Positions 5,077 to 61,671 of a stretch of DNA of 64,000 bases are shown piece after piece. This DNA comes from Microbacterium sp. ProA8 (GTDB taxonomy: Bacteria; Actinomycetota; Actinomycetes; Actinomycetales; Microbacteriaceae): assembly GCF_039905635.1 (NCBI RefSeq), contig NZ_CP157000.1, positions 4,154,001 through 4,218,000 of the forward strand. Direction: 5' to 3'. The notes under the pieces were generated by a model, which worked only from the letters and a program-made list of their open reading frames with translations, was not told the DNA's origin and did no database searches. The translations under genes and the position numbers were made by a program. Each line of letters opens with the position of its first letter. Positions within the stretch are counted from its first letter, which is position 1.

Positions 5077-5133
5077 CCCGGAGCTACGCGCTCGCTGTCG
5101 AGGAGCGTCGGATCGTCCGCGACCGAGGATCTC

Positions 5134-5172
5134 GGTCGTTGAGCGAGCGAGGAACGAGCGAGACGAAACGCG
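5134..5172. repeat. REP-like half element (GGTCGTTGAGCGAGCGAGG...GAGACGAAACGCG)
   Basis: This single-arm copy of the repeat family also occurs at 55422-55504, 56291-56370, 57287-57367 and 60684-60805. It contains GGTCGTTGAGCGAGC at the left and GAGACGAAACGC at the right, and ends exactly at the stop codon of the minus-strand HAD gene (5173-5175). It lies in the convergent gap between the FGE gene and the HAD gene, where it may also help terminate transcription. Confidence 0.8.
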
Positions 5173-7742: not shown

Positions 7743-7850
7743 GTGTGCGGTGGTGGCAGCGCCGGACCTTTTCCGCAGACCGGGACGACGAATAGGGTTT
7801 GGAGCAAGGGGACCCACGGGTCCCTCGCTCATGTGACTGAAGGAGAAGCT

Positions 7851-53682: not shown

Positions 53683-55410
53683 GTGACCATCAGCGAAACC
53701 GAAGCGCGCGCTGCGGCGGACCGCCCGCGCGCCGCCGTGCGCCCGCCGCGCGCGTCGTCGAAGCCGAACGGCCAGTGGAAGATCGACGGCACCGAGCCGC
53801 TCAACGGCAACGAGGAGTGGAAGCAGGTCGACAACGGCCTGAGCGTGCGCGAGCGCATCGAGCAGACCTACTCCAAAGGCGGGTTCGCCTCGATCGACCC
53901 GACCGACCTGCACGGCCGCTTCCGCGTGTGGGGGCTCTACACCCAGCGCAAGCCCGGCATCGACGGCGGCCGCACCGCCACTCTGACGGCCGAAGAGCTC
54001 GAGGACGAGTACTTCATGCTGCGCGTCCGCATCGACGGCGGCCAGCTCACCACCGAGCAGCTGCGCGTGATCGCCGGCATCTCCACCGAGTTCGGACGCG
54101 ACAGCGCCGACATCACCGACCGGCAGAACATCCAGCTGCATTGGATCCGCGTCGAGGACGTGCCCGAGATCTGGCGCCGCCTCGAAGCCGTCGGACTCGG
54201 CACCACAGAGGCGTGCGGCGACGTGCCGCGCGTGGTGCTCGGCTCGCCGGTCGCGGGGATCGCGGCGGACGAGCTCATCGATCCGACGGCGCAGATCGAC
54301 GAGATCACGTCGCGCTTCATCGGCGACGAGTCGCTCGCGAATCTGCCCCGCAAGTTCAAGACCGCCCTCACCGGCCACCCCAGCCAGGATGTCGTGCACG
54401 AGATCAACGACGTCGCGTTCGTCGCCCTGGAGCATCCTGACCTCGGCATCGGCTACGACCTCTGGGTCGGCGGCGGCCTGTCGACGACCCCGCGTCTCGG
54501 CGAGCGCCTGGGTGCGTTCGTGCGGCCGGATCAGGTGGCGGATGCCTGGCACGGCGTCGCACAGATCTTCCGCGACTACGGCTACCGGCGCCTGCGCAAC
54601 AAGGCGCGCCTGAAGTTCCTGCTCGCCGAGTGGGGCGCCGAGAAGTTCCGGCAGGTGCTGCAGGACGAGTACCTGGGCTATGCCCTGCCCGACGGCCCCG
54701 CCGCCCCCAAGCCGCTCACCCCCGGCGACCACGTCGGCGTGCACGAGCAGAAGGACGGCCGCTTCTACATCGGCGTCACCCCGATCGTCGGCCGCGTCTC
54801 GGGCCCGACCCTCGCGAGGCTCGCCGACGTCATCGAGGCGCACGGATCCACCCGCCTGCGCACCACGCCGCACCAGAAGCTCGTCATCCTCGACGTCCCC
54901 GCCGAGAACGTCGAGCCGCTCATCGCGGAGCTCGACGCCCTCGGGCTGCAGGCGCGTCCGAGTCTGATCCGCCGCGGCACCATCGCGTGCACGGGCATCG
55001 AGTACTGCAAGCTCGCGATCGTCGAGACGAAGGTCAACGCGACGGCGGCCGTGCTCGACCTCGAGGAGCGTCTCAACGGCTTCGAACTGCCGCATCCGAT
55101 CTCCCTCCACGTCAACGGATGCCCCAACTCGTGCGCGCGCATCCAGACGGCCGACATCGGGCTCAAGGGCCAGCTCGTCACCATCGACGGCGAGCAGGTG
55201 CCGGGCTATCAGGTGCACCTGGGCGGCGGCCTCGCCTCGCAGGACCGCGACGAGCCGGGCCTCGGCCGCACCGTGCGCGGGCTGAAGGTGGCCGCCGACG
55301 GCATCGCCGACTACGTCGAGCGCGTCGTCACGCGCTTCCTCGCCGACCGCGAGGCCGACGAGACGTTCGCCGAGTGGGCCCACCGCGCCGAAGAGGAGGC
55401 GCTCCAGTGA
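53683..55410 (+). CDS. Ferredoxin-type sulfite reductase (siroheme / 4Fe-4S)
   Basis: This 575-residue protein has the nitrite/sulfite reductase repeat twice. Cluster cysteines are C436 and C442 in IACTGIEYCKLA and C480 and C484 in HVNGCPNSCARIQ, a C-x5-C...C-x3-C pattern for siroheme-[4Fe-4S]. Conserved blocks include ADITDRQNIQLHWIRVEDVPEIWRRLE and RLRTTPHQKLVILDV. It reduces sulfite to sulfide with six electrons. Genes for a ferredoxin and an FprA-type reductase at the end of the operon, and the absence of a CysJ flavoprotein, favour ferredoxin as donor. The GTG 53683 start follows CGGAGG. A nitrite reductase is possible by family, but the cysHDN context argues for sulfite. Confidence 0.9.
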   Translation: MTISETEARAAADRPRAAVRPPRASSKPNGQWKIDGTEPLNGNEEWKQVDNGLSVRERIEQTYSKGGFASIDPTDLHGRFRVWGLYTQRKPGIDGGRTATLTAEELEDEYFMLRVRIDGGQLTTEQLRVIAGISTEFGRDSADITDRQNIQLHWIRVEDVPEIWRRLEAVGLGTTEACGDVPRVVLGSPVAGIAADELIDPTAQIDEITSRFIGDESLANLPRKFKTALTGHPSQDVVHEINDVAFVALEHPDLGIGYDLWVGGGLSTTPRLGERLGAFVRPDQVADAWHGVAQIFRDYGYRRLRNKARLKFLLAEWGAEKFRQVLQDEYLGYALPDGPAAPKPLTPGDHVGVHEQKDGRFYIGVTPIVGRVSGPTLARLADVIEAHGSTRLRTTPHQKLVILDVPAENVEPLIAELDALGLQARPSLIRRGTIACTGIEYCKLAIVETKVNATAAVLDLEERLNGFELPHPISLHVNGCPNSCARIQTADIGLKGQLVTIDGEQVPGYQVHLGGGLASQDRDEPGLGRTVRGLKVAADGIADYVERVVTRFLADREADETFAEWAHRAEEEALQ

Positions 55411-55421
55411 CCGTCTCCGCA

Positions 55422-55504
55422 ACGCGTTTCGTCTCGCTTCGCTCGCTCAACGACCGGGTTCCGGTCGTTGAGCGAGGGAGCGCCAGCGACCGAGACGAAA
55501 CGCC
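55422..55504. repeat. REP-like inverted-repeat element between sulfite reductase and cysH
   Basis: The left arm starts GCGTTTCGTCTCGCTTCGC and the right arm ends GAGACGAAACGC. The arms meet at ACCGG-GTTCC-GGTCG. This is a full two-arm copy of the family and the only one in this operon that lies in non-coding DNA. Confidence 0.85.
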
Positions 55505-55528
55505 CCGGATCAACGAGGAGGCTCAGGC

Positions 55529-56272
55529 ATGACCGTCTCGCTCGCACCCCGCGTCGCCGTCAAGCGCACGGCCGAAGAGCTGAAGGCCCTCGCCGAGCAG
55601 GGCAACCTCGAGCTCGGCAGCCTGACCGACCACGAGGCATCCGCTGCCGAGGTCGTCGCGTGGGTCGCGCGCAATTTCGGGACGGATGCCGCAGCCGTCG
55701 CCTGCTCGATGGCCGACGCCGCACTCCCCCACCTCGTGGCCGAGCAGCTGCCCGGCGTCGACGTGCTGTTCCTCGACACCGGCTACCACTTCACCGAGAC
55801 GTACGCGACGCGCGACGAGGTGCAGCGCGCGCTCGACGTGCGGATCGTCGACATCACCCCGTCTCAGACGGTGGCCGAGCAGGACGCGGAGTTCGGCGCG
55901 CAGCTCTTCGCGCGCGACCCGGGCCTTTGCTGCGCGCGCCGCAAGGTGGCGCCGCTGCAGGACGCGCTCGGCGGCTACGAGGTGTGGTTCACCGGCGTCC
56001 GCCGCGACGAGGCGCCGACGCGCACGAACACGCCCCTGGTGACGTGGGACGAGCGCAACGGGCTCGTCAAGGTGAACCCGGTCGCGGCGTGGAGCTTCGA
56101 CGACGTCCTCGCCTACGCGACGGCCCACAAGGCGCCGGTGAACCTGCTCGTCGGGTTCGGCTACCCGTCGATCGGCTGCGAGCCGTGCACGAAGCCGGTC
56201 GCCGCCGGCGAAGACCCCCGTTCCGGCCGATGGGCCGGACTCTCGAAGACCGAATGCGGGCTCCACGAATGA
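55529..56272 (+). CDS. cysH: Adenylyl-sulfate (APS) reductase, [4Fe-4S] type
   Basis: This 247-residue protein has CC at 134-135 (GLCCARRKVAPL) and C217-x-x-C220 (GCEPCTKPV), the four ligands of an APS-type [4Fe-4S] cluster. Catalytic C243 is in KTECGLHE near the C-terminus. The cluster motif marks it as an APS reductase rather than a PAPS reductase of the enteric type. The PP-loop-like N-terminal half includes VACSMADAALPHL and DVLFLDTGYHFTETYATRD. It reduces APS to sulfite plus AMP using thioredoxin. The start is ATG 55529, with AGGAGG 8 nt upstream. The cysD start codon overlaps its stop. Confidence 0.93.
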   Translation: MTVSLAPRVAVKRTAEELKALAEQGNLELGSLTDHEASAAEVVAWVARNFGTDAAAVACSMADAALPHLVAEQLPGVDVLFLDTGYHFTETYATRDEVQRALDVRIVDITPSQTVAEQDAEFGAQLFARDPGLCCARRKVAPLQDALGGYEVWFTGVRRDEAPTRTNTPLVTWDERNGLVKVNPVAAWSFDDVLAYATAHKAPVNLLVGFGYPSIGCEPCTKPVAAGEDPRSGRWAGLSKTECGLHE

Positions 56273-57267
56273 CTCTCGATACAGCTCAGGGCGTTTCGTC
56301 TCGCTTCGCTCGCTCAACGACCGAAAGCCACCGGTCGTTGAGCGAGCGAGGAACGAGCGAGACGAAACGCGCCGACGGACTCAGCACCCTCGACCTGCTC
56401 GAGGCCGAGGCGATCCACGTCATCCGCGAGGTCGTCGCCGAGTTCGAGCGGCCCGTGCTGCTCTTCTCCGGCGGCAAGGACTCGGTCGTCGTGCTGCACC
56501 TCGCCACCAAGGCCTTCGCGCCCGGCCGCGTGCCGTTCCCCGTGCTGCACGTCGACACCGGGCACAACTTCCCCGAGGTGCTGGCCTTCCGCGACGAGAC
56601 CGTGGCGCGGCTCGGCATCCGCCTGGAGGTCGCCCGCGTGCAGGACTACATCGACGACGGCCGCCTGCAGGAGCGCGCCGACGGCACCCGCAACCCGCTG
56701 CAGACGGTGCCGCTCCTCGACGCCATCGCCGCCGGCCGCCACGACGCCGTGTTCGGCGGCGCCCGCCGCGACGAGGACAAGGCCCGGGCCAAGGAGCGCA
56801 TCATCTCGCTGCGCGACGAGTTCGGTCAGTGGGATCCGCGCAATCAGCGCCCGGAGCTGTGGAGTCTTTACAACGGCCGCCACACGCCGGGCCAGCACGT
56901 GCGGGCGTTCCCGATCTCGAACTGGACCGAGCTGGACGTCTGGCGCTACATCGAGCGCGAGGGCGTCGCGCTGCCGCCGCTGTACTTCGCGCACGAGCGC
57001 GACGTCTACGCCCGCGACGGCATGTGGCGCCCCGTCGGCGAATTCTCGCCGCCGCGCGAGAACGAGACCGTCGAGCGCCGCACGGTGCGCTACCGCACCG
57101 TCGGCGACATGAGCTGCACCGGAGCGGTGGAATCGGATGCCGCGGACCTCGCCGCGATCGTCGCCGAGGTCGCCGTCTCCACCCTCACCGAGCGCGGCGC
57201 GACCCGCGCCGACGACCGCCTCAGCGAGGCGGCCATGGAGGACCGCAAGAAGGACGGGTACTTCTAA
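56269..57267 (+). CDS. cysD: Sulfate adenylyltransferase subunit 2 (CysD) with repeat-derived N-terminus
   Basis: This 332-residue protein has SGGKDS at 67-72 (PP-loop), TGHNFPEVLAFRD and GGARRDEDKARAKERI. It makes APS from sulfate and ATP with CysN. Residues 8-34 (VSSRFARSTTE... and SLSERGTSETKR) are encoded by a REP-like palindrome at 56291-56370. The CysD family normally begins at about residue 36 here (DGLSTLDLLEAEAIHVIREV). There is no other ATG or GTG between the repeat and the PP-loop region, so the repeat is translated. ATG 56269 overlaps the cysH TGA. Confidence 0.92.
   Translation: MTLDTAQGVSSRFARSTTESHRSLSERGTSETKRADGLSTLDLLEAEAIHVIREVVAEFERPVLLFSGGKDSVVVLHLATKAFAPGRVPFPVLHVDTGHNFPEVLAFRDETVARLGIRLEVARVQDYIDDGRLQERADGTRNPLQTVPLLDAIAAGRHDAVFGGARRDEDKARAKERIISLRDEFGQWDPRNQRPELWSLYNGRHTPGQHVRAFPISNWTELDVWRYIEREGVALPPLYFAHERDVYARDGMWRPVGEFSPPRENETVERRTVRYRTVGDMSCTGAVESDAADLAAIVAEVAVSTLTERGATRADDRLSEAAMEDRKKDGYF
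56291..56370. repeat. REP-like inverted repeat inside the 5' end of cysD
   Basis: The left arm starts GCGTTTCGTCTCGCTTCGC and the right arm ends GAGCGAGACGAAACGC. The element is about 80 bp and in frame with cysD, encoding residues 8-34. It is a near-identical partner of the copies at 57287 and 55422. Confidence 0.9.
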
Positions 57268-58659
57268 ATGTCTCTCGATACTCAGAGCGTTTCGTCTCGC
57301 TTCGCTCGCTCAACGACCGAAAACCCTCCGGTCGTCGAGCGAGGAGCGCAGCGACGAGACGAGACGCGCGAGCCGACGCTGTTCCGGTTCGCGACCGCGG
57401 GCTCGGTCGACGACGGCAAGTCGACGCTCGTCGGCCGGCTGCTGCACGACTCGAAGGCGATCCTCGCCGACCAGCTCGAGCAGGTCGCCCGCACCTCCGC
57501 CGACCGCGGGTTCGCGCACGGCGACTTCGACTTCGCCCTCCTGACCGACGGCCTGCGCGCCGAGCGCGAGCAGGGCATCACGATCGACGTCGCCTACCGC
57601 TACTTCTCGACCGGTACGCGGTCGTTCATCCTCGCGGACTGCCCGGGCCACGTGCAGTACACGCGCAACATGGTCACCGGCGCGACCACCGCCGACGCCG
57701 TGATCGTGCTCGTCGACGGCCGCAAGGGCGTGCTCGAGCAGACCAAGCGGCACCTCGCGGTCGTGGCGCTGCTGCGCGTGCCGCACGTGATCGTCGCGGT
57801 GAACAAGATCGACCTGACCGGCTTCTCGGCGGATGCCTTCGCCGACGTCGCCGCCCAGGCCCGTGCCGTCGCGGCCGAACTCGGCATCGACGATCTGCAC
57901 GTGCTCCCGGTGTCGGCGCTCGAGGGCGACAACATCGTGGACCGATCGGAGCGCACCCCCTGGTACGACGGCCCCGCACTGCTCGAGCTGCTCGAGACGC
58001 TTCCGGCGGCCGAAGCGCTCGAGCAGGAGCTCGAGCCGCTGCGGCTTCCCGTGCAGCTCGTGCTGCGCCCGCAGGGCGGTCTCGCGCCGGGCATCGAGGC
58101 CGACGAGGCGGAGCGGCTGCGCGACTACCGCGCGGTCGCGGGCCGCATCTCGAGCGGGGTCGTGCGCGTCGGCGACCGGGTCGAGATCTTTCCGGCCGGC
58201 CGCACGACCACGGTCACCGGCATCCGCTCGGCCGGAGCAGAGGTCGATCAGGCCACCGCCCCCCAGTCGGTGTCGCTCGAGCTCGAGGACGACATCGACA
58301 CCGCGCGCGGCGCGCTCGTCGTCGCCGCCGGCTCGCTGCCGGCGGCCCGGCGGGAGTTCGAGGCCGAGCTCTTCCAGCTCGATGCGCGGGCGCTGACCCC
58401 CGGCATCCGTGTGCTCGTCAAGCACGGCACCGCGACGGTGCAGGCCATCGTCGCGCAGATCGAGTCGCGCTACGACCTCGACGCGCTGACACACGAGCCG
58501 GCGCAGACCCTCGAGACCAACGACATCGGCCGTGTGCGGCTGCGTGTGGCGGCCGACCTGCCACTCGAGCCGTACCGCACCAGCCGCCACGGGGGCTCGT
58601 TCCTCGTGATCCATCCGTCCGACGGCGCGACACTCGCCGCCGGCATCGTGCGCGACTGA
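57268..58659 (+). CDS. cysN: Sulfate adenylyltransferase subunit 1 (CysN, GTPase) with repeat-derived N-terminus
   Basis: This 463-residue EF-Tu-like GTPase has G1 GSVDDGKST at 45-53, G3 DCPGH and G4 NKID. It couples GTP hydrolysis to APS synthesis by CysD. No APS kinase (CysC) domain follows, in keeping with an APS-type CysH. Residues 7-33 (SVSSRFARSTTEN, VVERGAQRRDET) come from a REP-like palindrome at 57287-57367. The family sequence begins at about residue 37 (TLFRFATAGSVDDGKST). ATG 57268 directly follows the cysD stop TAA. Confidence 0.93.
   Translation: MSLDTQSVSSRFARSTTENPPVVERGAQRRDETREPTLFRFATAGSVDDGKSTLVGRLLHDSKAILADQLEQVARTSADRGFAHGDFDFALLTDGLRAEREQGITIDVAYRYFSTGTRSFILADCPGHVQYTRNMVTGATTADAVIVLVDGRKGVLEQTKRHLAVVALLRVPHVIVAVNKIDLTGFSADAFADVAAQARAVAAELGIDDLHVLPVSALEGDNIVDRSERTPWYDGPALLELLETLPAAEALEQELEPLRLPVQLVLRPQGGLAPGIEADEAERLRDYRAVAGRISSGVVRVGDRVEIFPAGRTTTVTGIRSAGAEVDQATAPQSVSLELEDDIDTARGALVVAAGSLPAARREFEAELFQLDARALTPGIRVLVKHGTATVQAIVAQIESRYDLDALTHEPAQTLETNDIGRVRLRVAADLPLEPYRTSRHGGSFLVIHPSDGATLAAGIVRD
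57287..57367. repeat. REP-like inverted repeat inside the 5' end of cysN
   Basis: The left arm (GCGTTTCGTCTCGCTTCGC...) is the same as in cysD. The right arm is a diverged version (GGTCGTCGAGCGAGGAGCGC...GAGACGAGACGC). It encodes residues 7-33 of CysN in frame. Confidence 0.88.
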
Positions 58660-58729
58660 GCCTGTCGAAGTCTGAACGCCGCGCACACCACCCCGACTGA
58701 GTACCACCCGAACTGAAGGAGGCGACACC

Positions 58730-59800
58730 GTGAACACAATCCGCACCGCGACCACACTCACAACCCTGGGACTCGTGGCAGTCATGATGGCCGGCTGCGC
58801 CTCCGCCGCGGCGGACTCCGGCAGCGGCGAATCCGCCGCACCGGTCGACGAGCTGCGCCTGGGCTACTTCGCCAACGTCACCCACGCGCCCGCGCTCGTC
58901 GGGCTGGAAGAGGGGCTCTTCGAGGACGCCCTCGGCGACGTCGACGTGACCACCCAGGTGTTCAACGCCGGTCCCGCCGCGATCGAGGCGCTCTCGGCCG
59001 GCGCCATCGACGCGACCTACATCGGACCGAACCCGTCGATCAACACGTTCATCCAGTCGGGTGGCGAATCCGCGCGCATCGTCGCGGGAGCCGCCACCGG
59101 CGGCGCGGCGCTCGTCGTGCGGGAGGGCATCGATTCGCCGGACGACCTCGCGGGCACCACGCTCGCGTCGCCGCAGCTGGGCAACACGCAGGACGTCGCG
59201 CTGCGGAAGTGGCTGGCCGACGAGGGCTTCGAGACCGACACCTCCGGCGGCGGCGACGTGCAGGTCACCCCGACCGAGAACGCGCAGACCCTCACGCTCT
59301 TCCAGCAGGGCGAGCTCGACGGCGCCTGGCTGCCCGAGCCGTGGGTCTCGCGCCTGATCCTGGATGCCGGCGCGCACGTTCTGCAGGACGAGGCCGACCT
59401 CTGGGAGGACGGCGAGTTCCCGACGACCGTGCTGCTGGTGCGCAAGGAGTTCCTCGAGCAGCACCCCGACGTGGTCGCCGACCTGCTGAAGGGCCACGCC
59501 GCCGCCGTGCAGTGGATCGCCGACAATGCCGACGAGGCATCGGGCGTCATCAACGGCGCGATCGAGGCGGAGACGGGCAAGCCGCTCGACGACGCCGTGA
59601 TCGAGCGGGCGCTCGAGCACGTCGTCTTCTCGGTCGACCCGCACGCCGACACGTTCCAGACGCTCGTCGAGAACGGCATCGAGGCGGGCACCCAGAAGGA
59701 GGGCTCGATCGAGGGGCTCTTCGATCTGCGCCTGCTCAACAAGCAGCTCGAGGCCGACGGTGCAGACCCCGTGTCGGCGTCAGGGCTGGGCGAGGACTGA
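58730..59800 (+). CDS. ABC transporter substrate-binding lipoprotein (SsuA/NrtA-like)
   Basis: This 356-residue lipoprotein has a signal peptide with lipobox MAGC (C23). A type 2 binding-protein domain follows: LRLGYFANVTHAPALVGLEEGLFEDALGDVDVTTQVFNAGPAAIEALSAGAIDATYIGPNP, ANTFIQSGG-like and LPEPWVSRLI motifs. These belong to the nitrate/sulfonate/taurine family. Its place in a sulfate-assimilation operon points to a sulfur anion (sulfate or sulfonate), which is inference. No monooxygenase (SsuD, TauD) is present nearby. The start is GTG 58730, with AAGGAGG 7 nt upstream. Confidence 0.87.
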   Translation: MNTIRTATTLTTLGLVAVMMAGCASAAADSGSGESAAPVDELRLGYFANVTHAPALVGLEEGLFEDALGDVDVTTQVFNAGPAAIEALSAGAIDATYIGPNPSINTFIQSGGESARIVAGAATGGAALVVREGIDSPDDLAGTTLASPQLGNTQDVALRKWLADEGFETDTSGGGDVQVTPTENAQTLTLFQQGELDGAWLPEPWVSRLILDAGAHVLQDEADLWEDGEFPTTVLLVRKEFLEQHPDVVADLLKGHAAAVQWIADNADEASGVINGAIEAETGKPLDDAVIERALEHVVFSVDPHADTFQTLVENGIEAGTQKEGSIEGLFDLRLLNKQLEADGADPVSASGLGED

Positions 59801-59801
59801 C

Positions 59802-60677
59802 ATGAGCACCGCTCCCGCATCCGCCTCCGGGGCCGCGCAGGCGACCCCGGAGGCGGGCGCGCCCGCGCAGGCCGCGTCCCGCAGCCCGCTCGGCCCCAGC
59901 TTCGACAGCGTCACCCCGGTGCCGGTCGCGGCACCGCCGCCCGCACCCGCGGTGCGGATCGAGGGCGTCTCCAAGCGCTTCGGCGCCGGACCCGTCGTGC
60001 TCGACGACGTGTCGCTCGACATCGCCCCGGGCGAGTTCGTGTGCCTCCTCGGCGCGTCGGGCTGCGGCAAGTCGACGCTCCTCAACCTCATCGCCGACCT
60101 CGACAAGCCCACCGCCGGGCGCATCGAGACCCCGGCCGAGGGCGCAGCCGTCATGTTCCAGGAGTCGGCGCTCATGCCGTGGCTCACGGCGCGGCGCAAC
60201 GTCGAGCTGGCCCTGCGCCTGCGCGGCGTACCCCGCGGCGAGCGCCGTGAGAAGGCGCTGACGCTGCTGGATGCCGTGAACCTCGCGGATGCCGCCGAGA
60301 AGCGCCCGCACGAGCTCTCGGGCGGCATGCGCCAGCGCGTGGCGCTCGCGCGCGCCCTGGCCCAGGACCGCCCCGTGCTCCTGATGGACGAGCCCTTCGC
60401 CGCGCTCGACGCCATCACGCGGGACCTGCTGCACGAAGAGCTCGAGCGCGTGTGGCGCGCGACCGGCCGCACGATCGTCTTCGTCACGCACAACGTGCGC
60501 GAGGCGGCGCGGCTCGGCCAGCGCGTCGTGCTCATGGGAAGCCGCCCCGGCCGCATCGTGCAGGAGTGGACCATCGCGAAGACCACGGGACGCCGCATCG
60601 AGTCGCCCGAGGTCGCCGCTCTGTCGGTGGAGATCACCGACCAGCTGCGGAAGGAGATCCGCCGCAATGCCGCGTGA
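59802..60677 (+). CDS. ABC transporter ATP-binding protein (SsuB/TauB-like)
   Basis: This 291-residue ATPase has Walker A at 84-92 (GASGCGKST), signature LSGGMRQRVALARAL, Walker B VLLMDEPFAALDA and switch FVTHNVREA. An Ala/Pro-rich extension of about 50 residues precedes the fold. It energises the importer made with the lipoprotein (58730) and the permease (60667). The start is ATG 59802, one nucleotide after the stop of the binding-protein gene. Confidence 0.9.
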   Translation: MSTAPASASGAAQATPEAGAPAQAASRSPLGPSFDSVTPVPVAAPPPAPAVRIEGVSKRFGAGPVVLDDVSLDIAPGEFVCLLGASGCGKSTLLNLIADLDKPTAGRIETPAEGAAVMFQESALMPWLTARRNVELALRLRGVPRGERREKALTLLDAVNLADAAEKRPHELSGGMRQRVALARALAQDRPVLLMDEPFAALDAITRDLLHEELERVWRATGRTIVFVTHNVREAARLGQRVVLMGSRPGRIVQEWTIAKTTGRRIESPEVAALSVEITDQLRKEIRRNAA

Positions 60678-61671
60678 CACTGTCCGGTCGTTGAGCGAGC
60701 GCCCTTCGACAGGCTCAGGGACCTCGAGCGGGACGAAACGCCCCCAGTCGACGAACGACGTTTCGCCGGCGCGTTTCGACTCGCAAGCTCGCTCGACGAC
60801 CGAAGCGAACGACCTGCGCAGCCTGGCCGCCGGGCTCGACAACCTCCAGACCGACGCCGATCGCGGCCCCAGCCCATGGCGCCGTTTCGCGACGAGCGTC
60901 GTGCCGCCCATCCTCTTCGTCATCATCCTGCTCGTCGCGTGGCAGCTGTACGTGGTCATCGCGCAGCCCCGGCCCGACATCATGCCGGGCCCCGTCGACG
61001 TGTGGAACGCGCTCGGTGCGGCCTGGGAGTCGGGTCGCCTCCAGGAGGCCGTCTCGACGAGCCTCGAGCGCGGCATCGTCGGCTTCCTCATCGCGATCGT
61101 CGTCGGCACGCCCATCGGCCTGCTGCTCGCCGAGGTCCGGCCCATCCGCCGTGCCGTGGGCCCCATCATCTCGGGCCTGCAGGTGCTGCCCTCGGTCGCA
61201 TGGGTGCCCGCCGCCATCATCTGGTTCGGCCTGTCGGATGCCACGGTCTACTTCGTCATCCTCATGGGCGCGATCCCCTCGATCGTCAACGGCCTGATCG
61301 CCGGCATCGAGCAGGTGCCGCCGCAGCTGCGCCGGGTGGGCACCGTGCTGGGCGCCTCACGGTGGCAGCTGGCGACCGCCGTCATCCTTCCCGCCGCGCT
61401 CCCGGGGTACCTCGCCGGGCTCAAGCAGGGCTGGGCCTTCTCCTGGCGCTCGCTCATGGCGGCGGAGATCATCGCGACCGGCGGCACCATCGGCTTCGGG
61501 CTGGGCTCGATGCTCGACCAGAGCCGGGAGCTCGCCGACCTCGCCGGCGTGCTCGGCACCATCATCGTCATCCTCGCGATCGGCATCCTCATCGAGCTCG
61601 TCTTCTTCGGGCCTCTCGAGCGACGGATGCTGAAGCGCCGGGGCCTGCTCCTCACGGGAGGCGGGCGATGA
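60667..61671 (+). CDS. ABC transporter permease (SsuC/TauC-like) with repeat-derived N-terminus
   Basis: This 334-residue protein has about six spans from residue 80 and the EAA-like motif LRRVGTVLGASRWQLATAVILPAALPGYLAGLKQGWAFSWRSLMAAEII. It forms the membrane channel of the importer. The hydrophilic N-terminus (residues 7-47: RSLSERPSTGSGTSSGTKR...FDSQARSTTE) is encoded by a third REP-like element. Between that element and the first span there is no other ATG, and the first in-frame GTG is at the start of the span itself. The ATG 60667 overlaps the ATPase gene by 11 nt. Confidence 0.88.
   Translation: MPRDTVRSLSERPSTGSGTSSGTKRPQSTNDVSPARFDSQARSTTEANDLRSLAAGLDNLQTDADRGPSPWRRFATSVVPPILFVIILLVAWQLYVVIAQPRPDIMPGPVDVWNALGAAWESGRLQEAVSTSLERGIVGFLIAIVVGTPIGLLLAEVRPIRRAVGPIISGLQVLPSVAWVPAAIIWFGLSDATVYFVILMGAIPSIVNGLIAGIEQVPPQLRRVGTVLGASRWQLATAVILPAALPGYLAGLKQGWAFSWRSLMAAEIIATGGTIGFGLGSMLDQSRELADLAGVLGTIIVILAIGILIELVFFGPLERRMLKRRGLLLTGGGR
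60684..60805. repeat. REP-like element inside the 5' end of the ABC permease gene
   Basis: The element starts CCGGTCGTTGAGCGAGC and ends in a second, inverted arm (GCGTTTCGACTCGCAAGCTC...GACGACCGAAG). A different short repeat (CCCTTCGACAGGCTCAGGG) has entered the first arm. Half of that sequence also lies near 58657-58671. The element is in frame, encoding residues 7-47. Confidence 0.82.

Follow-up and report, generated by a model that had tools for sequence, protein, structure and literature searches.

How does a palindromic DNA repeat that elsewhere lies outside genes come to sit in frame at the start of several genes of one operon? In the window (the whole 64,000-nt stretch of Microbacterium sp. 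ProA8 DNA analysed here), cysD, cysN and an ABC permease gene each open with an in-frame copy of the same palindrome, which we denote family A. A preliminary description had placed these copies, and their coordinates and frames were confirmed, as were the peptides SSRFARSTTE, common to CysD and CysN, and SLSER...TKR, common to CysD and the permease. The operon genes are:

53683..55410, + strand: nitrite/sulfite reductase-type gene (NIR_SIR), first operon gene shown
55529..56272, + strand: cysH, PAPS reductase family (Pfam PF01507)
56269..57267, + strand: cysD, 332 aa, repeat-derived N-terminus MTLDTAQ[GVSSRFARSTTESHRSLSERGTSETKR]ADGLSTLDLL
57268..58659, + strand: cysN, 463 aa, repeat-derived N-terminus MSLDTQ[SVSSRFARSTTENPPVVERGAQRRDETR]EPTLFRF
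58730..59800, + strand: ABC transporter substrate-binding protein, NMT1-like
59802..60677, + strand: ABC ATPase, its stop ending 11 nt into the permease gene
60667..61671, + strand: ABC permease, 334 aa, repeat-derived N-terminus MPRDT[VRSLSERPSTGSGTSSGTKRPQSTNDVSPARFDSQARSTTEAN]DLRSL

The cysH TGA overlaps the cysD ATG (ATGA), and the cysD TAA is directly abutted by the cysN ATG. The non-coding family-A copies described earlier were also found, and a second repeat family, B, is present:

5132..5171, no strand: family-A half-element, non-coding
55422..55504, no strand: non-coding family-A palindrome that separates cysH from the reductase gene (predicted RNA fold, -58.5 kcal/mol, z -7.2)
56291..56370, no strand: family-A palindrome in cysD, in frame, 80 nt (hairpin -64.8 kcal/mol, z -9.7)
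57287..57367, no strand: family-A palindrome in cysN, in frame, 81 nt (-48.7 kcal/mol, z -4.9)
58657..58670, + strand: family-B repeat word TGAGCCTGTCGAAG, which opens with the cysN stop codon
60684..60806, no strand: compound element in the permease gene, in frame (-63.2 kcal/mol, z -4.0)
60702..60723, no strand: family-B repeat CCCTTCGACAGGCTCAGGGACC, lying within the permease element and interrupting the family-A copy

The compound element has an inverted order, with the right half-element first and the left half-element second.

Probable reading of the repeats as protein

The preliminary description held that the repeats must be translated. For ATG and GTG starts this stands: no in-frame ATG or GTG separates the repeat from the conserved core in CysD (the next is GTG 56455, codon 63) or in CysN (none within the first 85 codons), and the next in the permease is GTG 60901, so any ATG or GTG start for the three genes necessarily translates the repeats. 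The argument had omitted in-frame TTGs, one of which lies within the repeat in CysD (56338) and one in the permease (60691); a start at either would leave half of the repeat in the protein. Family models and a solved homologue match CysD and CysN only from about the end of the repeat, with TIGR02039 starting at CysD residue 41, TIGR02034 at CysN residue 40, and 1zun at CysD residue 33 and CysN residue 37.

It is very improbable that the repeats go untranslated, initiation lying downstream and the open frame upstream being accidental. PMC3733652 cautions that many REPs at N-termini may lie outside genes, and the two TTGs are possible later starts; however, neither spares the whole repeat from translation, and CysN has no ATG, GTG or TTG from its ATG to the core. 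In relatives without the repeat, moreover, this stop-start junction has an ATG as well, and copies within MetH and a CcdA-like protein have conserved sequence on both flanks. Judged from the sequence, translation of the family-A repeats at the start of CysD, CysN and the permease is probable.

Abundance and in-frame copies in the genome

Family A is far more abundant than chance would give. The pattern TCGCTCGCTCAACGACCGG, allowing up to 3 mismatches, has at least 198/193 copies on the two strands of the genome, against 3/2 for the reversed pattern, and scanning 1.264 Mb for elements gave 98 clusters, compared with 2 in reversed sequence. The genome-wide total is estimated at ~200 clusters. 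A whole element spans ~64-82 nt. The left arm is open in 3/3 frames and the right arm in 2/3, so an in-frame copy would be read through; among in-frame copies the left arm favours one frame (7/8). Most clusters lie outside called genes, with 16/106 inside a gene core and 26/106 in convergent gaps; these 106 include L208:17553-17571 (...QRSIYDRF...) and L213:19197-19215, both discounted as inserts and taken for chance matches to ordinary coding sequence. L269:4004-4092 was excluded as ambiguous, an ATG lying downstream.

An apparent copy-free void at 1.67-3.05 Mb proved an artefact: 20 stretches sampled there contain exact copies, and the density is lower, yet non-zero. A strand bias among exact matches was ascribed to how palindromes are listed, and a single Rfam match, to a microRNA, fell below threshold (26.1 bits, cut-off 90) and was taken as a chance match to a palindrome.

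The genome search found in-frame copies in more proteins than had been reported. Further hosts of family A are KdpB, SURF1-like, PaaA, MetH, DsbD/CcdA-like, MntH, HsdM and GH95 proteins, and the copies also occupy internal loops, an interdomain linker and C-termini. In MetH the insert separates S-methyl_trans (74-365) from Pterin_bind (431-666). The CcdA-like protein, which in ProA8 has no Pfam match, is so named because insert-poor relatives match DsbD_TM.

Position relative to stop and start codons

The preliminary description offered two readings of the N-terminal copies, a preferred target at start-codon junctions of translationally coupled genes, or tolerance only there. The first is not supported by the distribution: elements occur at 5/227 coupled junctions against 32/542 other co-directional junctions (Fisher p 0.027; the genes come from a caller of our own, which makes their starts and their assignment to the 'coupled' class approximate), most clusters lie outside genes, and in-frame copies are also found in loops, a linker and C-termini. 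Tolerance is the better fit, if one adds that the location of a repeat tracks the stop codon upstream of it. In the 33 co-directional junctions with an element, the median distance from upstream stop to element is 18 nt, and that from element to called downstream start is 56 nt. The repeats thus sit shortly past stop codons, as REPs do.

If insertion were aimed at the places where coupled genes meet, stop to start, as has been suggested for mycobacterial MIRUs, the N-terminal fusions would be its direct product. The N-terminal cases do all lie at coupled or abutting junctions (22/22, in a hand-chosen list), and the cys operon is heavily loaded in both Microbacterium and Agromyces, by different repeat families. 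The element between the reductase gene and cysH, moreover, is flanked on either side by a copy of a ~25 nt stretch covering the overlap:

55393..55417, + strand: left copy, at the reductase gene end, with a ribosome-binding-like GAGGAGG plus TGACCGTCTC
55515..55539, + strand: right copy, holding the cysH start codon

Three relatives (L069, L070, L071), whose site is empty, have this stretch as a single copy. The duplication is not general, however: over 70 elements, 6 have a flank score >=12, where shuffled flank pairs would give 1.04, and 3 of the 6 are tandem arrays, so we rejected target-site duplication as a general rule. With elements rarer at coupled than at other co-directional junctions, many of them in convergent gaps and several in-frame copies internal, targeted insertion is an unlikely account.

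As to how the repeat spreads, a Y1 (RAYT) transposase (PF01797) was found in 0/24 genomes, including that of ProA8, whereas 5/14 control genomes match, and RAYT-driven spread was rejected on this ground. Carriage by phage or plasmid was also set aside, the 152-nt cysD junction having no match in phage and plasmid collections.

The same sites in relatives

At the same sites, some relatives carry family A and others unrelated repeats, and some have shorter N-termini without repeat words, so it does not hold that all share one length and lack the repeat. M. ureisolvens has no repeat words in CysD (MTVTAAPTALSTLDLL), CysN (MTATLTATPTLFRF) or the permease, and M. hibisci has none in CysN. Repeat words were counted in parsed rows as follows:

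CysD: 5/28 (own and 4 relatives), with 7/35 loci left out as unparsed; the 28 include misparsed A. luteolus and L076 (one residue each), and family C in A. luteolus is uncounted
CysN: 5/35 (own and 4 relatives)
Permease: 5/12, all relatives, with 10/22 left out as unparsed, including the own row
KdpB: 3/20 (own and 2 relatives); the 20 include misparsed L303, L305, L306 and L308, and a partial family-A-like word in L308 is uncounted
CcdA-like loop: 3/19 (own and 2 relatives), with 1/20 left out as unparsed
MetH linker: 2/18 rows from 13 genomes (own and 1 relative), with 1/19 left out as unparsed

A control stretch of the same length in every row had 0 repeat words for all six proteins. Long N-termini without a recognised repeat word occur in G017 (CysD, 50 aa), L085 (62 aa) and M. 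hibisci (48 aa), so length alone is no sign of a repeat. Among public CysD proteins, 28/119 parsed N-termini match repeat peptides, or 27 once the false match P0057 is removed; the core control gave no match.

Other families differ in how clearly they are repeated. In the two Agromyces species with family-C inserts, GGTGGTCGAGTAGC occurs 84/72 and 67/68 times against 9/6 and 11/12 for controls, and in two species without inserts 3/2 and 5/3 times, all by a looser pattern; a strict exact pattern gives only 5/0 and 1/2. For family B, whose words are short, the strict exact pattern gives 20/16 in G077 and at most 5 per strand elsewhere; its abundance is clear only in G077, moderate in ProA8, and not seen in G019, G003, G005 or G076. 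In other species (L231-L237) the inserts in the CcdA-like loop look palindromic by eye, and the multiplicity of the L231 insert is weak (13/6 in G012 against 0/0; 0-5 forward and 2-9 reverse in nine other genomes).

mRNA hairpins and translation

The preliminary description suggested that the hairpins could tune translation of the coupled genes, which is possible from their predicted folds. As a full account, in which the repeats are kept for tuning or insulating coupled-gene translation and the peptide is a by-product, this is unlikely. The predicted hairpins are strong in cysD, cysN and the permease gene alike (free energies and z-scores above), and the same operon junctions hold different palindrome families in Microbacterium and Agromyces. 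However, M. ureisolvens has no such repeats at the three junctions, so they are not needed; the same repeats are also found in internal protein loops, far from any question of initiation; and in the chosen N-terminal cases the elements begin 15-39 nt after the start codon, a position that we take to be at or beyond the edge of an initiating ribosome.

A bolder proposal, to which we give little credence, is that sulfate-assimilation junctions in Micrococcales are a recurrent landing zone where lineages independently take their own palindrome in frame, N-terminal extension and hairpin together insulating or tuning coupled translation. Were it true, unrelated DNA repeats would have converged on one function.

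Comparison with known repeats

By analogy, the family-A repeat may work like Rickettsia palindromic elements (RPEs), which passages of PMC10969869 portray as palindromes in frame in many unrelated genes, with peptide inserts thought compatible with the host protein; the likeness is one of insertion pattern. Family A differs in coming from another phylum, in being a shorter element, and in being mostly intergenic and stop-codon-proximal, and in other genera the equivalent protein positions carry different repeat families. Family A also recalls the MITEs of that source's relevant passages in being short, multi-copy and built of inverted repeats, but has no unique core between its arms, no general target duplication and no identified transposase.

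The GTAG and CGTC REPs, as presented in parts of PMC3733652, are likewise mostly intergenic palindromes near gene 3' ends, few in divergent gaps and sometimes intragenic, and the recB genes of two Xanthomonas species carry different REPs at about the same site; the main text of that paper does not contain the word Actinobacteria. Family A resembles REP/RAYT repeats in being a short multi-copy palindrome, mostly extragenic and near gene 3' ends. The cysD copy (56291-56370) differs in having no GTAG; its CGTC is predicted to pair within the stem and not to stand as an unpaired end tag. MIRUs, first treated in work of 1997 and taken up in a passage of PMC12548453, lie at start codons of coupled genes, as do the N-terminal family-A copies chosen here; there the repeat's own ORF is coupled to the gene, whereas family A is palindromic, fused in frame in CysD, CysN and the permease, and without preference for coupled junctions.

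Discussion

We consider it likely that family A is a REP-like, stop-proximal palindrome that gene overlap places in the first codons of the next gene, where it is kept if tolerated. Its usual place would be a short distance past a gene's stop codon. Where operons are tightly packed, that stop codon frequently overlaps or adjoins the start of the following gene, and the repeat would then come to lie within the first codons of that gene. A copy in frame would lengthen the protein by up to ~27-44 residues, placed before its conserved fold. Only copies that the protein tolerates would be kept, in N-terminal extensions, loops, an interdomain linker and tails, and other lineages at times have a different repeat family at these permissive places. 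Selection by tolerance and a near-neutral effect of the inserts are what we infer; tolerance alone does not explain the frame bias of the left arm or the density in the cys operon.

Rickettsia and the occasional intragenic REP already provide examples of in-frame palindromes; here they appear in free-living Actinomycetota. The same protein position empty, with family A, or with an unrelated family in three species provides natural controls, with which one can test if the inserts are useful or tolerated junk. A stop-codon-proximal place combined with gene overlap would provide a simple rule by which non-coding repeats become protein.

In-frame repeats near the starts of three cys operon genes

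The 4.37-Mb genome of Microbacterium sp. ProA8 carries, in the window (4154001–4218000), an operon with the order nitrite/sulfite reductase-type gene, cysH, cysD, cysN, ABC binding protein, ATPase and permease; the closest named CysD loci come from Microbacterium species. Near its start, each of cysD, cysN and the permease gene has an in-frame palindromic repeat of family A (arms GCGTTTCGTCTCGC...CGCTCAACGACCGG and their complement), and the operon holds four of the five family-A clusters in the window. All coordinates of the preliminary description were confirmed on re-examination of the sequence, and its statement that no alternative ATG or GTG separates repeat and conserved core in CysD and CysN was borne out by a scan for in-frame start codons. 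The only in-frame ATG, GTG or TTG codons upstream of the conserved core are:

cysD: ATG 56269, TTG 56338
cysN: ATG 57268
permease gene: ATG 60667, TTG 60691

Both TTG codons lie inside repeats, so half of the repeat would be translated even from those starts. The solved 1zun alignment starts at CysD residue 33, taking in the last two repeat residues, and at CysN residue 37; matches to TIGR02039 and TIGR02034 start at CysD residue 41 and CysN residue 40, respectively. Reading the frames, we infer that the repeats are translated.

In M. ureisolvens, the repeat is absent from all three proteins (CysD MTVTAAPTALSTLDLL, CysN MTATLTATPTLFRF, permease MPHDTLTAAKTDAAASAHSDDLRSL), and M. hibisci CysN (MTATLTAQPTLFRF; 93% identical to the window over the matched part) also lacks it. 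M. hibisci CysD, however, is not short: 48 residues precede its conserved core and include a palindrome-like insert of different sequence. In both species, the matched part of CysD shares 98% identity with that of the window. The inverted-order pair of half-elements in the window permease also occurs in that of M. hibisci, and this copy was therefore probably inherited.

Abundance of family A

The family-A word TCGCTCGCTCAACGACCGG, at up to three mismatches, has 198 forward and 193 reverse matches in the genome (reversed pattern, 3 and 2), and an element scan of the window plus 60 stretches (1.264 Mb) gave 98 clusters versus 2 in reversed sequence. At least one match with two mismatches or fewer occurs in 42 of 59 genomes of the genus, only some of which are rich (forward matches: own genome 176, G043 137, G066 132, G008 84). 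Clusters are about four times rarer between roughly 1.7 and 3.03 Mb, possibly the terminus half (8 in 480 kb; stretches L188–L191 plus L209–L228), than over the initial 1.7 Mb (50 in 780 kb; stretches L149–L187). Elements also form tandem arrays with locus-specific spacers and periods of about 100–127 nt (L173:2845–3272, L194:2991–3362, L200:334–727 and L275:1627–2918), as if the palindromes provoked local duplication.

Further in-frame copies came from sampling 1.664 Mb in 81 sources, with 106 clusters, and from a targeted extra set of 20 further stretches (marked below as targeted).

Proteins with in-frame family A
KdpB: N-terminus
MetH: between the S-methyl_trans and Pterin_bind domains
DsbD/CcdA-like membrane protein: loop
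MntH: Nramp match split in two
HsdM
Heparinase II/III-like protein
PaaA: tail
Thioredoxin-like lipoprotein beside the CcdA-like gene (named by eye): degenerate remnant in the first codons
SURF1: N-terminus (targeted)
GH95 glycosidase (targeted)
One low-complexity region: three copies (targeted)

In L280:1–1398, a low-complexity N-terminal region, three PVVERARNERDETP-type copies stand with AESVEAPVADGPSTSSGTG units resembling the other repeat type. In five stretches (L162, L166, L227, L284 and L286), the upstream gene ends on a stop codon that the element provides (PGR* or AGR*); the like is reported for GTAG REPs in PMC3733652.

The same sites in related bacteria

Family A recurs in the same frame in CysD and KdpB of the related genome G022, in CysN of G014 and in KdpB of G005. 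Family B (GAGCCTGTCGA-type words) occupies the same sites in G019 (CysD and CcdA-like loop), G003 (MetH) and G005 (CcdA-like loop), as well as in the Arthrobacter liuii permease, Arthrobacter wenxiniae CysD and CysN of a Pseudarthrobacter. In Agromyces luteolus and A. bracchium, family C (GGTGGTCGAGTAGC-type repeats) lies in CysD, CysN, the permease and the next gene, judged by eye to encode a methyltransferase. Own row included, repeat words appear in 5/28 CysD, 5/35 CysN, 3/20 KdpB, 3/19 CcdA-like loop and 2/18 MetH linker rows (the last from 13 genomes), and in 5/12 permease rows, where the own row was not parsed; same-length control stretches of these rows contain none. Family B is short and clearly abundant only in G077 (20/16 versus 0/1); in the own genome, 1.6 Mb contained 21 near-copies. 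One family-B word in the window lies at the end of cysN:

58657–58670: starts exactly at, and provides, the cysN stop codon

Among the best 120 public CysD matches listed, whose order by similarity to the query favours family A and whose starts were annotated by others, repeat peptides occur in 28 of 119 parsed N-termini (one, P0057, false) and in none of the core controls. Several genomes of the genus carry, in the CcdA-like loop, palindrome-like inserts of other sequence that differ from one another (L229–L237).

In 13-kb Agromyces cys loci, chosen by CysD similarity and not by repeats, the family-C word has 14 matches in five clusters in A. luteolus (0.52 expected) and seven in four clusters in A. 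bracchium (0.42 expected), two species that have some copies in common and do not count as independent. The A. bracchium cluster at 7830 is inside cysN by position, off any junction.

Hairpins and reading frame

The RNA folds reach −64.8 (z = −9.7), −48.7 (−4.9) and −63.2 (−4.0) kcal/mol for cysD, cysN and the permease gene. Judged by ribosome footprints, the hairpins begin at the limit of the region covered by the initiating ribosome or past it, and an influence on initiation is therefore not evident; they may affect elongation, mRNA stability or coupling. All three frames of the left arm are open, and VSSR[FS]ARSTT or a near form is used in seven of eight own-genome cases judged clear (CysD, CysN, permease, KdpB, MetH, CcdA-like and PaaA; GH95 is the exception, and the degenerate L195:17970 was excluded). 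Under equal frame use, at least seven of eight in any one frame has p ~0.008. With this frame, the right arm escapes TGA only when a loop displaces it. The bias can be read as selection on the peptide or as a fixed insertion phase.

Relation to known systems

Family A works like the Rickettsia palindromic elements (PMC10969869) and intragenic REPs (PMC3733652). The Y1 transposase was found in none of 24 genomes (5 of 14 control genomes were positive) and GTAG is absent from the cysD copy; we therefore do not class family A as a REP/RAYT member. Among the papers listed for Actinobacteria or Microbacterium, which include the first 25 of 131 for one query and few subscription journals, no title or abstract opening described such in-frame palindromes. 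Mycobacterial MIRUs (PMC12548453) lie at start junctions, as family A does in the chosen N-terminal cases, but couple a separate ORF.

Position relative to stop and start codons

The preliminary description had proposed, as one of two options, the start junctions of coupled genes as a preferred target. This was not supported: elements occur in 5 of 227 coupled junctions, defined by any in-frame ATG or GTG located at the stop of the upstream gene, versus 32 of 542 other co-directional ones (Fisher p = 0.027). Where a co-directional junction holds an element (33 cases), the upstream stop is a median of 18 nt away and the roughly placed downstream start 56 nt. Element-subtracted spacing is 80 nt or less in 13 of these 33, versus 8% expected if insertion tracked intergenic length, and in 12 of 18 convergent junctions, versus 6%. 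Divergent gaps are poor in clusters (9 in 53.4 kb, versus 26 in 53.9 kb convergent and 47 in 129 kb co-directional).

For 22 chosen N-terminal cases, with the upstream stop taken from the longest upstream open frame, the start codon lies between 1 nt after and 11 nt before the end of that stop; in the 21 with the element seed located, the element begins 8–39 nt after the upstream stop and, counted from the first base of the start codon, 15–39 nt downstream. At the reductase–cysH junction, a stretch of about 25 nt covering the ribosome-binding site and start flanks the element (55393–55417 and 55515–55539) and is single in three relatives; this doubling of the overlap leaves both genes whole. 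Given the stop distances and the low rate at coupled junctions, the upstream stop is the best descriptor of where the element lies, and gene overlap would make this stop-proximal place into coding sequence.
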